Origin: Faecalibacterium sp.
GTDB lineage: Bacteria; Bacillota; Clostridia; Oscillospirales; Ruminococcaceae
Assembly (NCBI GenBank): GCA_029264955.1
Contig: JARHYC010000021.1
Location: 1-64,000, forward strand
DNA length: 64,000 bases
Direction: 5' to 3'
A model generated the notes under the pieces. The model worked only from the letters and a program-made list of their open reading frames with translations, did not search any database and was not told where the DNA came from. The position numbers and the translations under genes were made by a program. This document shows, one piece after another, positions 28,115-43,254 of the stretch (its first letter is position 1; each line of letters opens with the position of its first letter).

Positions 28115-28400
28115 AAAATAAAAGGCTCGTCTCAAATTTCTTTGAGACGAGCCTTGTCAAAAACAATACCCGCGGTACCACTCAAATTGTGCGACTTTCG
28201 CCGCACCACTTTCAGGCTCTAACAAGCCCTATGCACTAACGTAGCATTCACGAAAAACCCTACTGACAATTTTGTTTTAAGGTTTTCAGCTCGGAAGGGA
28301 TAGGATGTTTTAGCTGCTGTTTGCCTGGCTCGCACCAACGCCTGACTCTCTGGAAAACGCTTTGCTAAATCCGTCTTCGTCATCGCTTTTCATATGAAGT
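28115..28400 (-). promoter_or_regulatory. T-box leader upstream of brnQ
   Basis: On the minus strand: stem-I-like GCGATGACGAAGA...CCAGAGAGTCAGGCGTTGGTGCGAGCC, T-box sequence GAGTGGTACCGCGGGTA (about 28167-28184), then terminator GGCTCGTCTCAAAgaaaTTTGAGACGAGCC (28124-28153) + T-rich tail. Confidence 0.93.
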
Positions 28401-36379: not shown

Positions 36380-37522
36380 TTAGGGCTGGGGCAGTACTTG
36401 GCCGCTTACACCATCACGAACGGCAATACTCTCCACACCACCTGCACGCAGGGCGGCAAATACCTGCTCCTGCGTAACCGACACTTCATCGTCTTGCGCA
36501 TCTTCGTCGGGTTCCACGGAAGTCACTGCGACCATCAGTTTCTTCATACCCAGTTCGCCGGGCAGCACTGCACCCAACGTAGAGGATGGTGTTACACAGC
36601 TCTCATAGGGAACTTCATACACCAGCGTGCAACTATCGGCAAAACGTTCTTCCCATGCGGCAATGTCCGCACGCAGCTGCGCGGCACGATCCCGTCCACC
36701 GGTATCGCCAAAGTCCTGCTTGGGGCTTTCCTGACGAGGGAACTGTACACCGGACAATACTACGATATCGAAGCCCATATCCTTGGCTTCCTGAATCAAA
36801 TCGCCGATATACTGTACCGCAGCAGGATTATACGGGTTTGTCCAGCGTTTGCCGCCAGCTTCTGCCTTATTGTCCAGCCAAGTATAATCCTGACCTACAT
36901 ACTGAATCCCCATCGCGCGGTCCACCATCGGGTCCTTAAATACTGCAATAGAGGCAACTGGCTGTACCCCCTTTGCGCGCAGTGCGGCTGCCACAGCCGC
37001 TGGGTCGATCGTAGTAGCTGCGATGCTGGCAGCTGCCTGCGGTACCGCGCTATTATAGTACAGATAACCGCTCTCATCCTTTAGGGGGACAATCCCATAA
37101 TTCACACCCTGATCATGCAGTTCCTGTGCGGTTGCTTCCATGGATTCCGGGCTCTGCAATGCCGACAAGCTCAGCATTTTCAAACTGCCTGCCGTATACC
37201 CGGATGATTCCGGTACGGCAGGTTCTACAGTCGGTTCTACCGACTCACCCTGCACTTCCGACTGTGCATCCTGATCCGGCGTTTGGCTTTCTGCCGAAGG
37301 CGTAGGCTGCACCGTGTTGTGTTCTTCCTGTTTGATGGTATCATACCAGAAGCTCGTACCCCAATCCAGCACACCCGGTGCTACAACAAACCCCAGCACA
37401 AAGACCAGTGCAACGACCAAAAGGCCAGTCAAGATTCGCTTTACCCAATAGGTTCGGCCACTGCGGTAAAAATTATGATTATACCGTTTGACACGCCCTA
37501 TATTTTTTCTTCTTTTTGCCAT
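36380..37522 (-). CDS. Membrane-anchored putative glycoside-hydrolase-like protein (DUF4015-like TIM barrel)
   Basis: MAKRRKNIGRVKRYNHNFYRSGRTYWVKRILTGLLVVALVFVLGF signal anchor; ...VAALRAKGVQPVASIAVFKDP...WTNPYNPAAVQYIGDLIQEAKDMGFDIVVLSGVQFP. Confidence 0.65.
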   Translation of the reverse strand: MAKRRKNIGRVKRYNHNFYRSGRTYWVKRILTGLLVVALVFVLGFVVAPGVLDWGTSFWYDTIKQEEHNTVQPTPSAESQTPDQDAQSEVQGESVEPTVEPAVPESSGYTAGSLKMLSLSALQSPESMEATAQELHDQGVNYGIVPLKDESGYLYYNSAVPQAAASIAATTIDPAAVAAALRAKGVQPVASIAVFKDPMVDRAMGIQYVGQDYTWLDNKAEAGGKRWTNPYNPAAVQYIGDLIQEAKDMGFDIVVLSGVQFPRQESPKQDFGDTGGRDRAAQLRADIAAWEERFADSCTLVYEVPYESCVTPSSTLGAVLPGELGMKKLMVAVTSVEPDEDAQDDEVSVTQEQVFAALRAGGVESIAVRDGVSGQVLPQP

Positions 37523-37547: not shown

Positions 37548-38159
37548 TTAAATTGCCACGGTATGACCGGTGAAACCATACACCGCCATTGCCAGAATAC
37601 CAATATAGATCATGACAATCGGCAAACCACGAAATGGTCCGGGCACTGCACTGCTGCGCAGACGGCGGCGCGCCTCCGCCACCATCAAAACTGCAATCAG
37701 GTAACCCACGCCACTACCCAGGCTGTAACCGATGGTCTGCGCCAGCGTGAAACGCTGCACTGTAGTAACCAGCATTGCGCCCACCACACAGGTATTAAAA
37801 CCCGCATTGGGCAGCATTTTCAAAAGCCGGTCTTTATACGGGAAGTTCTGTACACAAGTCAGTACCAGCCACAATAGACCGCACACCGCAAAGGTACATG
37901 CCACAAAAACCAGCGGACGCAGCATTGCGCGCAGCTCCAGCTTGTTCAGCTGCGTACCAATCAACCAAGAAAGCGGTGCATTCAGTACGCAGATCACGCT
38001 CAGAAGCAAACCAAACAGCAGGCTAGATGTATCATCATCACCCACCAGCTGTACCAGACGAGATACGCCTGTACCGCGCGCCAGCACGGTATTCTGCGCA
38101 AAAAGTGCCATCAATGCGTATACAAAAAAGGTCGATACCGCCGAAATCACTGCATTCAT
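37548..38159 (-). CDS. RnfA-like membrane subunit
   Basis: VYALMALFAQNTVLARGTGVSRLV...YSLGSGVGYLIAVLMVAEARRRLRSSAVPGPFRGLPIVMIYIGILAMAVYGFTG resembles RnfA/RsxA throughout. Confidence 0.85.
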   Translation of the reverse strand: MNAVISAVSTFFVYALMALFAQNTVLARGTGVSRLVQLVGDDDTSSLLFGLLLSVICVLNAPLSWLIGTQLNKLELRAMLRPLVFVACTFAVCGLLWLVLTCVQNFPYKDRLLKMLPNAGFNTCVVGAMLVTTVQRFTLAQTIGYSLGSGVGYLIAVLMVAEARRRLRSSAVPGPFRGLPIVMIYIGILAMAVYGFTGHTVAI

Positions 38160-38806
38160 GCTTTCTTCTTCGCCTCCTGTTCCAAATAGTGGCGCCAAGC
38201 ACTGCCAATGCTGCGCCAAACGGCAAACAGCACACCCACCAGCATAAAGCCACCCGCCGGGGTAGCTGCCAGCGACAGCATGGTTCGGTCTGTAATCGGA
38301 TGTTCGAAAATCGTTCCCAATGACAGCAATTCACGCAGACAGCCCGTCAGCATCAAAACCAACGCATAGCCCAGCGTAATGCGCAGCCCTTTCGAGAATG
38401 CCTTATGCACCGGCTCCGGCACACGACCACTGCGGTAAACCACCAGCGGGTCTACCACCAGCAGCGGCAAATACAGACCTAACGTCAGGATATCATTACC
38501 AAAAATATTACGCATCGCCAGCCATACAAAACAATATACCACCGCGGAAATGGCACAGTAACTGGCTGTACGCAGCAACTGCTGGCGCACGTTGCGCAGC
38601 AGCAAACTGCACAGCACACGGGTAGGTGTCAGTAGAAGCGCAACCGCCACAGCCAGCAGCATTGCCTTACGGCCTGTGGTAGCCATAACGACCAGCGGTG
38701 CCAAACCCATACCCTGCATAACTGCTGGGTTATTCAAAAAGATTCGATCATGGTGAAAGTAATGCTCTTCTTCCGCCAGAATCATTTGTGCGCGCTCACT
38801 TCGCAT
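38156..38806 (-). CDS. RnfE-like membrane subunit
   Basis: NNPAVMQGMGLAPLVVMATT...ILTLGLYLPLLVVDPLVV...LGYALVLMLTGCLRELLSLGTIF...PAGGFMLVG resembles RnfE. Confidence 0.83.
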   Translation of the reverse strand: MRSERAQMILAEEEHYFHHDRIFLNNPAVMQGMGLAPLVVMATTGRKAMLLAVAVALLLTPTRVLCSLLLRNVRQQLLRTASYCAISAVVYCFVWLAMRNIFGNDILTLGLYLPLLVVDPLVVYRSGRVPEPVHKAFSKGLRITLGYALVLMLTGCLRELLSLGTIFEHPITDRTMLSLAATPAGGFMLVGVLFAVWRSIGSAWRHYLEQEAKKKA

Positions 38807-39809
38807 TTGCCGCGCCCCCCTTCTTCTGAATCATTGCCAGAACTTCATAGCCTTTTTCCGTCAGGCGATCCAGCCACTGGGACACACTGCCCACAACCAG
38901 CGTCGCAAAGCAAATACCGGTATCATAAACGCCAAAATAACGGAACGCCATTGTCAGCAAGCCCAGCAGCACACCGTACAAGATCTGACCGCCGCGATGA
39001 CGCTGCGGAGTTGTGAACGGCTCGGTTGCCAAAAACAATGCACCGAACAAAATCGCGCCGGACACCAACTCGTAGGTAGCCAGAAGTACACGGCCGGTCG
39101 TGGTTTGTGCAATCACGGCATTTTCCACGATGGCGTCGCGGGGGTGCAAAAATGCAACCGCGCCGCAGGTCAGCAAAAATGCAAGCGGTGTATAGATCTT
39201 AATATCCCTGCGTGCCAGCAAAAATACGCCGCAGGCAATCAAAACCAGAATCGCAGTGGTACCCATCGGACCTGCATAGTTGCCTAACAGCATGTGCAGC
39301 ATATCCGTCGTGGGAATACCGCCGTTGCGCAGCATATTGGACATACCGCCGGACAAAATCACCTCTCCGTTTGAGGTAAAGGGCACCATCGTACCCGGCG
39401 CTGGGTATCGCATCACCTGTTCCGGCCAGGATACCGCAACTACTACATAACCAACCGCAGCCGGATTAAAGGGGTAACTTCCATAACCGCCGAAGGCTTC
39501 TTTGCCAATCAGGATACCGGAAAGCACTGCCACAGTCAAAATTGGCCAAGGGCAGCTGGCGGGCATCAGCAGTGCAATGATCAAACTGAAGCACTCGCTG
39601 GACCAATCACTGCGCTCATAGGGGCGTTTCCGCAGAAAGCACACCAGTCGATCGCACAAATTTCCCAGCACTGTGGCATACAGGCACATCCAAACCGGAC
39701 GCGCGCCGTAATAAAAGAATGCCATACTGACCAGTGGCAACCCCAGCAGGCAAACATCCCAATAATAGTGCCGATCACTCCCGGCCTGGATTTTTAGTTT
39801 TTCGGACAT
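38796..39809 (-). CDS. RnfD-like membrane subunit
   Basis: SLIIALLMPASCPWPILTVAVLSGILIGKEAFGGYGSYPFNPAAVGYVV, GNYAGPMGTTAILVLIACGVFLLARRDIKIYTPLAFLLTC, SGAILFGALFLATEPFTTP. Confidence 0.87.
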   Translation of the reverse strand: MSEKLKIQAGSDRHYYWDVCLLGLPLVSMAFFYYGARPVWMCLYATVLGNLCDRLVCFLRKRPYERSDWSSECFSLIIALLMPASCPWPILTVAVLSGILIGKEAFGGYGSYPFNPAAVGYVVVAVSWPEQVMRYPAPGTMVPFTSNGEVILSGGMSNMLRNGGIPTTDMLHMLLGNYAGPMGTTAILVLIACGVFLLARRDIKIYTPLAFLLTCGAVAFLHPRDAIVENAVIAQTTTGRVLLATYELVSGAILFGALFLATEPFTTPQRHRGGQILYGVLLGLLTMAFRYFGVYDTGICFATLVVGSVSQWLDRLTEKGYEVLAMIQKKGGAANAK

Positions 39810-39841: not shown

Positions 39842-40492
39842 TCACAGGGCTGCCAGCGTTTTTACGGCCTGTTCCGGGTCTTTGGCAGCAAATACTGCGC
39901 TGCCCGCCACCAAAACATCTGCGCCTGCTTCTACACAAGCCGGACCCGTCGTTGCGTCCACGCCGCCGTCCACTTCCAGCAGGAAAGACAGGCCGCGCTT
40001 TTCCCGTTCTTCTTTCAGCCAACGCAGCTTATCCAGTGCAGAAGGCATAAACTTCTGACCGCCAAAGCCAGGCTCTACGCTCATAACCAGAACCAGATCC
40101 AGCTGATCCAGCCAGGGAGCCAGTGCTTCTGCGGGGGTTCCGGGCTTGATGGTCAAACCGGTCTTGCAACCTGCTGCACGAATGGCAGCCAGCGTTTCTG
40201 CCACATCATCTTCACTCTCCAAATGAAAGTTGATCAATGTTGCGCCTGCTTCTGCAAAGGCCTTAACATATTCCAGAGGATGGGAGATCATCAGGTGTGC
40301 ATCATAAAACGCATCGGGCAAATTCTTATGCAGGCTCTTCAGAACCGGCACGCCAAAACTAATATTCGGTACAAAATGACCATCCATAACATCATAGTGC
40401 AGCATTGCTGCGCCGGCATCCAGCACCATACGGCAATCTGCCGCCAGGTGACCGAAATCTGCCGACAAAATCGAAGGGCTAACCATCGACAT
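39842..40492 (-). CDS. rpe: Ribulose-phosphate 3-epimerase
   Basis: SPSILSADFGHLAADCRMVLDAGAAMLHYDVMDGHFVPNISFG, VMSVEPGFGGQKF, LEVDGGVDATT. Confidence 0.96.
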   Translation of the reverse strand: MSMVSPSILSADFGHLAADCRMVLDAGAAMLHYDVMDGHFVPNISFGVPVLKSLHKNLPDAFYDAHLMISHPLEYVKAFAEAGATLINFHLESEDDVAETLAAIRAAGCKTGLTIKPGTPAEALAPWLDQLDLVLVMSVEPGFGGQKFMPSALDKLRWLKEEREKRGLSFLLEVDGGVDATTGPACVEAGADVLVAGSAVFAAKDPEQAVKTLAAL

Positions 40493-40815: not shown

Positions 40816-42321
40816 TTATACGTGTTTCTTTTCGTTTTTCTGATTTTTGCTTTCTTCAGTCTGGTCCGATAGCTTCAGCAAATCTTTTTTATTGGGCAGC
40901 TCTGCGGGCAGTGTAAAAGCAAATTTGCACCACTCGCCTTGTTTGCTTTCTACCCAAATCCGACCGCCGGACAGATTCACCAGAACTTTGCAGATATGCA
41001 AGCCCAGACCGCTGCCTCTTGCGTGCAAACCACGAGACTGGTCTTCTTTATAGAAACGCTCAAACACAAAAGGCAGTGCTTGCGCACTGATCCCCTGGCC
41101 GCTGTTCCAAACAGAAATCTCCACTTCAGGTCCAAGCCGCTGCGCCGACAAGCGAATCGTACCATTTTCGGGCGTGAACTTAATCGCATTATCCAGTAGG
41201 TTATACGCCACCTGATGAATCAAATCCGGATCTGCATAAACCAGCGTCTGTCCCATTTCTTCCAATCCTTCCAGATTGATTTTGCCGTTGGTAATGCGCT
41301 GTTCCGCACTGATTGCCGCACCCGCCAAGGTTTCCCATACATTATATAGGCGAGCATGTACCTGATATTCGCCGGATTCCAGTTTTGTGATATCCAGCAT
41401 ATTTTGTACCAGACGTGCCAGACGCCCCACTTCCTGAGATACGATATTCAGGTAATGATTTTGCAACTCCGGCGGAATCGTGCCGTCCAACATACCGTCA
41501 ATGAAACCCTTGATAGTGGTCATTGGGGTACGCAGCTCATGGGCGATATTGCCTGTAAACTGTGCACGAGAGCGGTCCATTGCTTCCAGATTTGCTGCCA
41601 TCGTATTAAAATCAGCTGCCAACTGACCTACTTCGTCTTCGCTGTTTACATTTTCCACACGGACTGTCATATCTCCGCCGCCAAATTTGCGCGCTACCTG
41701 ACTGATTTCGTGCAGCGGTGCTGTCAGACGATTGCTCAGATAGATTGTCAAAATCATGGCGCACAGCAGCATCAGGCTGGCGGACAGCAGAAAATTGGAA
41801 AACATTTGCCCCAAAAAGTCGTTAAAGGCTTCCACCGGTGTATACACGAACAAATAACCATTATCGGCCAGCGTTGCCGTCACATAGCTGCGATAGGGCA
41901 AAAATCCACCCAAATCGGTCAGACCATGGTACCGTGCCTCTTTCGTATCGATTTTTTTTGAAATCTTTTCCAAGCAGCCCGCAGAAAGCGGTTTATCCGT
42001 ATCTACCGCCGGATCCAACTCTAACAGAACATTGCCCGACTGGTCCGTAACCAGCAGATTCATACCGGAGCTTTCCCAAATCAGCTCCAGCGTTTTGCGT
42101 GCTGCTTCGTTGCCATCATCCTGCCGGACTTCATCTCGGTCCGTATAAGCCTGCTCTACCACACGAATTGCCAAAGACACCATCTGATCGCCGGTGGCAT
42201 AGTGTTCTTCTGCAAAATACTTGGCGAACAATGTCATCTGGGAAAGGCCCATCACCAGAGTACCTACCACCAGCAACGTGGACACCATGGAAAAGAAGGA
42301 AACCGAAATACTTTTCCGCAT
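40816..42321 (-). CDS. HAMP-containing sensor histidine kinase
   Basis: HAMP region, FTGNIAHELRTPMTTIKGFIDG H-box, NLLDNAIKFTPENGTI N-box, RGSGLGLHICKVLVNLSGG. Confidence 0.95.
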   Translation of the reverse strand: MRKSISVSFFSMVSTLLVVGTLVMGLSQMTLFAKYFAEEHYATGDQMVSLAIRVVEQAYTDRDEVRQDDGNEAARKTLELIWESSGMNLLVTDQSGNVLLELDPAVDTDKPLSAGCLEKISKKIDTKEARYHGLTDLGGFLPYRSYVTATLADNGYLFVYTPVEAFNDFLGQMFSNFLLSASLMLLCAMILTIYLSNRLTAPLHEISQVARKFGGGDMTVRVENVNSEDEVGQLAADFNTMAANLEAMDRSRAQFTGNIAHELRTPMTTIKGFIDGMLDGTIPPELQNHYLNIVSQEVGRLARLVQNMLDITKLESGEYQVHARLYNVWETLAGAAISAEQRITNGKINLEGLEEMGQTLVYADPDLIHQVAYNLLDNAIKFTPENGTIRLSAQRLGPEVEISVWNSGQGISAQALPFVFERFYKEDQSRGLHARGSGLGLHICKVLVNLSGGRIWVESKQGEWCKFAFTLPAELPNKKDLLKLSDQTEESKNQKNEKKHV

Positions 42322-42324
42322 AAT

Positions 42325-43023
42325 TTACTGATGCACCTCGAATTTATAGCCGACGCCCCAAACGGTCTTCAGTTCCCATTGATCTGAGGCACCAGCCAGC
42401 TTTTCACGCAGACGCTTTACATGTACGTCAATGGTACGGGAATCGCCGTAGTATTCAAAGCCCCACACCTCGTCCAGCAACTGGTCACGGGTATATACTC
42501 GGTTTGGGTGACCTGCCAGGCAGTTCAGCAGTTCCAGCTCCTTGGGGGGTGCTTCCACAACTTTGCCGTTGACACGCAGCTCGTAGCTGTTCATATCCAG
42601 ACGCAGATTTTCAAATTCCAGCACGCCGTCCTGCTTTTCTTCTTCCTTGCAGCTACAGCCGCAGCGACGCAGTACAGCCTTGATGCGTGCCACAACCTCT
42701 TTTGCGTCAAAGGGCTTGACCATGTAGTCATCTGCCCCCAACTCCAGGCCCAACACCTTATCAAAGGTATCTCCCTTTGCCGTCAGCATAATGACGGGTG
42801 TATTGCCCTGCTGGCGAATGCGGCGGCAAGTTTCCCATCCGTCCATACGCGGCATCATAACATCCAAAAGCACCATATTGGGCTTTTCTTTTTCAAATAA
42901 ATCCAGTGCCTGAATACCATCGTTTGCCACAATCACTGCATAGCCTTCCTTGACCAAATACAGTCGCAGTACTTCGCAGATGTTCTGGTCATCGTCTACG
43001 ACCAGGATTTTTTCGTTTGCCAT
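42325..43023 (-). CDS. OmpR/PhoB-family response regulator
   Basis: MANEKILVVDDDQNICEVLRLYL, VLLDVMMPRMDGWETCRRIR, winged-helix DEVWGFEYYGDSRTIDVHVKRLREKL. Confidence 0.95.
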   Translation of the reverse strand: MANEKILVVDDDQNICEVLRLYLVKEGYAVIVANDGIQALDLFEKEKPNMVLLDVMMPRMDGWETCRRIRQQGNTPVIMLTAKGDTFDKVLGLELGADDYMVKPFDAKEVVARIKAVLRRCGCSCKEEEKQDGVLEFENLRLDMNSYELRVNGKVVEAPPKELELLNCLAGHPNRVYTRDQLLDEVWGFEYYGDSRTIDVHVKRLREKLAGASDQWELKTVWGVGYKFEVHQ

Positions 43024-43254
43024 GTGATCCACTCCTTTTATGTCAATCCCAAGCAGTTACAAATTATCATCTTGCCTTCATTATATAAGATACTTGTGGA
43101 TAAATAAAGAACAATCTATGCACATTCCGCACACTTTCCCGCTGAAAAAGGGCATGGGTGCGTTGCGCCGCACCGCACTTTCTGTTAAAATAGTAAAGAT
43201 TACAGTACATAACCGGACTATCGTTCGGCCGGATACAAAAGGAGACACCACATT

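Follow-up and report, generated by a model that had tools for sequence, protein, structure and literature searches.

Rnf (RnfABCDGE) is a ferredoxin:NAD+ oxidoreductase which pumps Na+ or H+ in a redox-driven manner. In Rnf and Nqr an FMN is linked to a threonine of RnfD/NqrB, and an intramembrane [2Fe-2S] cluster is held by two cysteines each from RnfA and RnfE. A complete Rnf has the six subunits C, D, G, E, A and B in one operon, among them an RnfC with an FMN/NADH site and two 4Fe-4S clusters. The locus described here is located in a window of 64,000 nucleotides, i.e., the whole stretch of Faecalibacterium DNA that was analysed. It encodes only three of the six, a D, an E and an A protein, and contains no RnfC. 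We propose that these proteins, designated D', E' and A', are the old membrane core of an Rnf which is devoid of transmembrane electron transfer and is maintained for a task other than redox chemistry; we assign this reading a probability of about 55%. No earlier account of such a module was found in the open-access literature.

The three genes are on the minus strand in the order D-E-A. D', an RnfD/NqrB-family membrane protein of 337 aa, is encoded at 38796..39809 (PF03116, 4e-60), E', of the RnfE/NqrD family (216 aa), at 38156..38806 (PF02508, 7e-26) and A', of the RnfA/NqrE family (203 aa), at 37548..38159 (PF02508, 2e-16). Adjoining genes overlap by 4-11 nt. The conserved upstream neighbour is rpe, coding for ribulose-phosphate 3-epimerase (39842..40492; PF00834, 3e-69, and synteny). 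On the other side a DUF4015 gene (36380..37522; PF13200, 4e-17, and synteny) specifies a putative glycosidase-like, membrane-anchored extracytoplasmic TIM-barrel protein. Farther upstream a sensor histidine kinase (40816..42321), which is kept in the genus and in some relatives, is paired with a response regulator (42325..43032; an open reading frame with orthologues of >80% identity) as a two-component system. All of these neighbours are on the minus strand as well. The original prediction, made from the sequence of the window, was correct in its coordinates, the overlap of D, E and A and the residue readings. It also stated correctly that rnfC, rnfG and rnfB do not adjoin and that rpe and a GH-like gene, here identified as DUF4015, are the flanks.

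D', E' and A' are true homologues of RnfD, RnfE and RnfA. All three pass the Pfam cut-offs for PF03116 or PF02508, and PF03116 is the sole Pfam match of D'. They are far under the NCBIfam cut-offs for rnfD, rnfE and rnfA (D' scores 153 vs 207 bits). The AF2 model of D' (pLDDT 88.7) displays the RnfD fold, and its best PDB matches in Foldseek are the RnfD chains 8ahx_D, 9eri_D and 7zc6_D (TM 0.75-0.78, E 1e-14).

The cofactor ligands are missing. Codons 153-156 of D' read SGGM, which places G155 in the column of the canonical T156, and the FMN-site residues (T, R, E, D) are gone. The cluster cysteines are replaced in E' (C25 by A36, C108 by P120) and in A' (C25 by S33, C113 by T123). The cysteine in the FNTCVVG stretch of A', which had been singled out in the original prediction, is present (C124), yet it is positioned one residue beyond the ligand column and is not one of the four ligands. 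For a systematic comparison 36 degenerate members and 28 canonical clusters were aligned by MAFFT and HMM, including the solved RnfD, RnfA and RnfE. Neither alignment recovers ligands at shifted positions; such a recovery is what the original prediction had named as speaking against it, and the ligand losses hold. The SxAT motif exists in 0/36 degenerate members, and a threonine alone occupies that column in 14%. No member has more than two of the four cluster cysteines; the window has none. The individual retentions are 11% for C25 and 0% for C108 of E, and 0% for C25 and 32% for C113 of A. The 28 canonical clusters possess the threonine and the four cysteines wherever the respective subunit is present. 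The losses exceed chance because they are the same in all 36 members compared and occur in none of the 28 canonical clusters. The degenerate proteins have also diverged broadly: median retention over the 151 columns which are invariant in canonical D, E and A is 39%. Against this broader divergence the loss of ligands is selective. In the FMN pocket of D retention is 0% for R133, 0% for D155 and 3% for E187 (numbering of the canonical operon L007 of the same genome, see below). By alignment, two of these columns match Arg130 and Glu185 near the FMN in the Clostridium tetanomorphum structure (PMC9588780). Taken together, the alignments support the core of the original prediction, a cofactor-poor membrane module derived from Rnf.

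Other residues were preserved. Polar buried columns are kept in 92-100% of the degenerate members, i.e., K115, D75 and R277 of D, R155-E156 and N22 of E, and N19 and N116 of A (L007 numbering). In window numbering, A N122 is retained in 100%, E N26 in 97%, D R290, E R158 and A N23 in 94% each, and D K103, D D68 and E E159 in 92% each. N122 of A' corresponds by alignment to N112 of Acetobacterium woodii RnfA (N116 in L007), the side chain of which was reported to contact Na+ (PMC11889175). Concerning the known gate residues, with roles carried over from other species by alignment as for all residues discussed here, E88 of A is kept in 6% and E115 of E is half lost. Thus, the known Na+ path is not intact.

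An order-wide search comprised 396 genomes, many of them MAGs and with families given as codes; some 60 loci were compared. The same locus with its losses is present in families f1, f5, f7, f9, f15 and f24 of the order. Beyond the genus the layout is rpe, often a mecA-like gene on the opposite strand (the name is a guess), an optional C', then D', E', A' and usually DUF4015. C' is an RnfC-like gene which many relatives have beside the triplet. The original prediction would have counted genes with the same substitutions next to rnfB, rnfC or rnfG as evidence against it. In relatives, genes with substitutions of the same kind do adjoin the RnfC-like gene, which itself has lost the FMN/NADH loop; RnfG and RnfB were never found in the 36 degenerate copies compared. 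In every C' the eight Fe-S cysteines of the two 4Fe-4S motifs are intact. The canonical FMN/NADH loop GGA(G/T/A)FP is replaced by a GIVDExDGxPLY-like sequence and, in most copies, ECEP by DDEP or EDEP. The C' proteins of L056, L090, L093 and others share a new conserved GIVDExDGxPLY / DDEPY signature at this loop.

NqrB hands electrons to quinone, and by analogy one may envisage a partial redox half-circuit in which a cytosolic donor reduces the 4Fe-4S clusters of C', these reduce the riboflavin of D', and electrons perhaps continue to a membrane-soluble acceptor. The form consisting of D, E and A only would then use another donor or have lost this capacity. We consider such a circuit unlikely, if worth keeping in mind. 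The eight cysteines in all C' proteins, with the GGAxFP loop gone, are in line with it, as is an intact N/D riboflavin pair in 11/15 C'-bearing vs 5/16 C'-less members (Fisher p 0.03). However, this correlation derives from just two independent C' losses and is without significance once the tree is considered. Further, no transmembrane cofactor chain is left, and Faecalibacterium is without C', its sole RnfC being part of the canonical operon. In C'-bearing members some redox role may survive because C' keeps two 4Fe-4S motifs and D' often the N/D pair.

At the class level 392 genomes were searched and the best 22 loci inspected. One is a known f1 member; the others are canonical-type with RnfC, D and G. 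In nearly all of these the D motif and the first RnfE cysteine (GxCP) are canonical by simple pattern, with two D and one or two E motifs unread. Within this sample the degenerate form is limited to the order. Two f14 loci, L114 (G349) and L115 (G193), have an odd rnf with C and with a D which kept the threonine; E and B were not recognised, and in A of L114 C25 is replaced by G. Possibly, the f14 loci are an independent partial degeneration. In f7 (L131, L253-L256) the open frame of E' is extended at the N-terminus by about 250 aa of Ala/Glu-rich, low-complexity sequence, and in f24 the E' proteins end in charged tails of about 150 aa. An RnfG-E fusion as the origin of the long E' frames (L131, f24) was rejected; the extra sequences are of low complexity and contain no FMN_bind domain.

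The phylogeny asked for in the original prediction unites the cysteine-poor copies. In a D+E+A tree of 51 rows with ligand columns removed and with long branches, they form one clade, supported by 100/100 for 30 rows without f7 and by 79/99.6 when the f7 copy L131 is included. This clade nests among the canonical rnf of the order. In f4 (L126, L129) and f25 (L146) the locus of the triplet is taken up by an intact rnfCDGEAB operon, flanked by DUF4015 and, at the opposite end, by rpe or the mecA-like gene. A separate branch comprises the canonical operons of f1, f5 and f24 (100 SH-aLRT in a quick tree with long branches). A recent duplication of, or descent from, the genome's own canonical rnf was rejected (p-AU 0.02). 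The simplest reading is that CDGEAB at the old locus was reduced to CDEA, with loss of G, B and the membrane cofactors, and then to DEA in Faecalibacterium; C' was probably lost at least twice, independently.

The genome (1.88 Mb, 39 contigs, 99.6% complete) was inspected for a second, complete rnfCDGEAB cluster, and contig 3 has one (G000:C3, L007). This operon has all of rnfC-D-G-E-A-B, among them the other PF03116 gene and the other two PF02508 genes of the genome, and its proteins contain the SAT motif, VNC, TNC and both GxCP motifs. It includes the only RnfC of the genome. Presumably, this second Rnf does the redox work.

All genera of family f1 which were tested and have the triplet also carry a canonical Rnf. 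This would be compatible with subunit exchange, i.e., D', E' and A' might join canonical C, G and B in an alternative or inhibitory Rnf with lowered or retuned pumping. We regard this as improbable. Lacking the ligands, a mixed complex would not pass electrons via A'/E' or D', and an origin from the own canonical operon was rejected, as stated above. Four f7 genomes (G024, G048, G067, G113; 90-98% complete) have the degenerate cluster only, without canonical RnfA/E; hence a canonical partner is not required in these organisms. The idea in the original prediction of a partner for subunits elsewhere has become less likely on account of these four genomes and of the sole RnfC residing in its own complete operon.

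The canonical RnfG of this genome (L007:6757-7776) carries FMN_bind twice in tandem, with SGAT in each domain; RnfG in the other Faecalibacterium loci looked at has about 184-211 aa. The genome has 15 FMN_bind matches (C2, C3, C10, C15, C18, C23, C26, C29, C31), none of them on contig C5. Many FMN_bind open frames have 570-700 aa, which suggests that flavinylated extracellular reductases are numerous.

The cytosolic riboflavin site of RnfD might have been reused in D' for uptake or efflux of the vitamin. The partial retention of N123 and D249 (A. woodii numbering; 56% each) would agree with such a flavin facilitator, as would the relation of the D' fold to urea transporters. The idea is nonetheless a long shot. 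The pair is N/E in the window (N115, E263), H/E in most of the genus and N/D in many C'-bearing relatives, and in some lineages S/E/C, i.e., the site is erased. Riboflavin genes are absent among the immediate neighbours, and Rfam reports neither an FMN riboswitch nor another regulatory RNA at the triplet locus. A scan for promoters and terminators gave sites not above those in shuffled sequences. Elsewhere in the window, at 28140-28392 on the minus strand, a T-box leader (RF00230) scores barely over the gathering threshold.

Within the genus the triplet was present in 18/18 other Faecalibacterium genomes searched, with A' identities of 51-66%. Carriers are Faecalibacterium prausnitzii, F. longum, F. 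hattorii, F. gallinarum and others; further, Gemmiger, Fournierella massiliensis and Pygmaiobacter massiliensis. The order rpe-D-E-A-DUF4015 is constant across the genus, and D', E' and A' are without additional rnf genes in 19/19 Faecalibacterium loci. These substitutions are fixed: E' reads GLAP and V(E/D)P throughout, A' reads GVSR, and SxAT is missing from D'. Several rpe frames (L045-L047, L049-L053; several Faecalibacterium, partly chicken-derived) are about 22-42 aa longer, which may be start-site artefacts of mechanical ORF calling. In seven pairs of related species dN/dS, approximate because it is based on Nei-Gojobori counts, was 0.11-0.26 (D'), 0.10-0.35 (E') and 0.06-0.27 (A'), values like those of rpe and DUF4015. 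The triplet genes are under purifying selection. A decaying, functionless pseudo-operon, as the stepwise loss of genes and ligands and the long branches might suggest, is very hard to reconcile with dN/dS values of 0.06-0.35, which argue against pseudogenes, with frames open in all but very few copies, with a synteny fixed in the genus and six families, and with the intramembrane polar residues preserved as described.

The proposal of a non-redox membrane core can be outlined as follows. The data support a loss of rnfG and rnfB from the rnf operon at the rpe-DUF4015 locus; together with these genes went the FMN site on the extracellular side of RnfD and the iron-sulphur site shared by RnfA and RnfE. 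The remaining RnfC lost its FMN/NADH loop and, in several lineages including Faecalibacterium, the gene itself disappeared. In most of these genomes a second, distinct rnf operon carries the full canonical set. D', E' and A' probably retain their Rnf folds and come together as in the parent complex, and electrons would no longer gate the passage between A' and E'. The module might then serve as a redox-independent passage for Na+, H+ or a small solute under another gating signal, and we favour ion or solute passage as its function; the flavin or ion transporter suggested in the original prediction is possible. In A. woodii Na+ passage was proposed at the RnfA/E interface (PMC11889175). RnfD itself was argued to pass no Na+ in that organism, a point against the proposal (PMC11889175). 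There is a published precedent for an Rnf membrane complex which matters independently of electron flow: for the toxin Bte2 the Rnf proteins are required, their electron transport is not (PMC12718326).

A joint role of the triplet with the DUF4015 neighbour is possible, weakly supported. The model of this protein (pLDDT 80.8) matched the folds of Cthe_0052 and of the functional region of Cwp19 in Foldseek; the latter is a peptidoglycan lytic transglycosylase. DUF4015 is also located beside canonical rnf, so the linkage is older than the degeneration and does not imply a functional partnership.

How does the triplet compare with known systems? D' has a remote fold likeness to urea and ammonium transporters (dvUT 3k3g, AmtB; TM about 0.45, best 0.46). 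A likeness of RnfD/NqrB to the urea-transporter fold is known. However, D' has no sequence relation to these transporters and the Foldseek E is 0.02 or worse; D' is not one of them. The NQR/RNF-like flavinylated systems (Meheust et al. 2021, PMC8238504) likewise make partial use of NqrB/RnfD. Yet their RnfD is fused to an NqrF-type NAD domain (PF03116-PF00175) and stands beside FMN-binding and ApbE genes for redox purposes; none of these is present at the triplet locus.

With Rnf the triplet shares the families PF03116/PF02508, the D-E-A order within (C)D-E-A, the RnfD fold and the ancestral locus. It differs in that RnfG, RnfB and SxAT are lacking, the four [2Fe-2S] cysteines are never complete, and RnfC is absent or without the FMN/NADH loop. 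In Faecalibacterium prausnitzii and relatives annotation may count the triplet as an additional Rnf, a chemistry of which it is incapable.

Na+-NQR (NqrA-F) offers a parallel in history, as a neofunctionalised copy of an rnf operon minus rnfB in which NqrA, the relative of RnfC, was stripped of cofactors (PMC4014512). Nqr, however, kept the cofactors of D, E, A and G and recruited NqrF, whereas in the triplet the membrane cofactor sites are gone and no recruit was found. Here a respiratory complex was stripped stepwise, CDGEAB, CDEA, DEA, at one syntenic locus. It is conceivable, at somewhat less than even odds, that the triplet and its relatives constitute a third branch within the Rnf/Nqr superfamily. 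This branch would be a redox-silent transporter or channel found across the order and descended from a redox ion pump whose cofactors were shed; it is present in every Faecalibacterium genome examined and, in some lineages, stands without canonical Rnf. The Na+ route in Rnf and Nqr is disputed, with RnfA/E and RnfD/NqrB as contenders (PMC11889175, PMC9588780). A natural and selected D-E-A core without Fe-S cluster and covalent FMN is a ready test object for this question; should it conduct, ion passage would be separable from electron flow.
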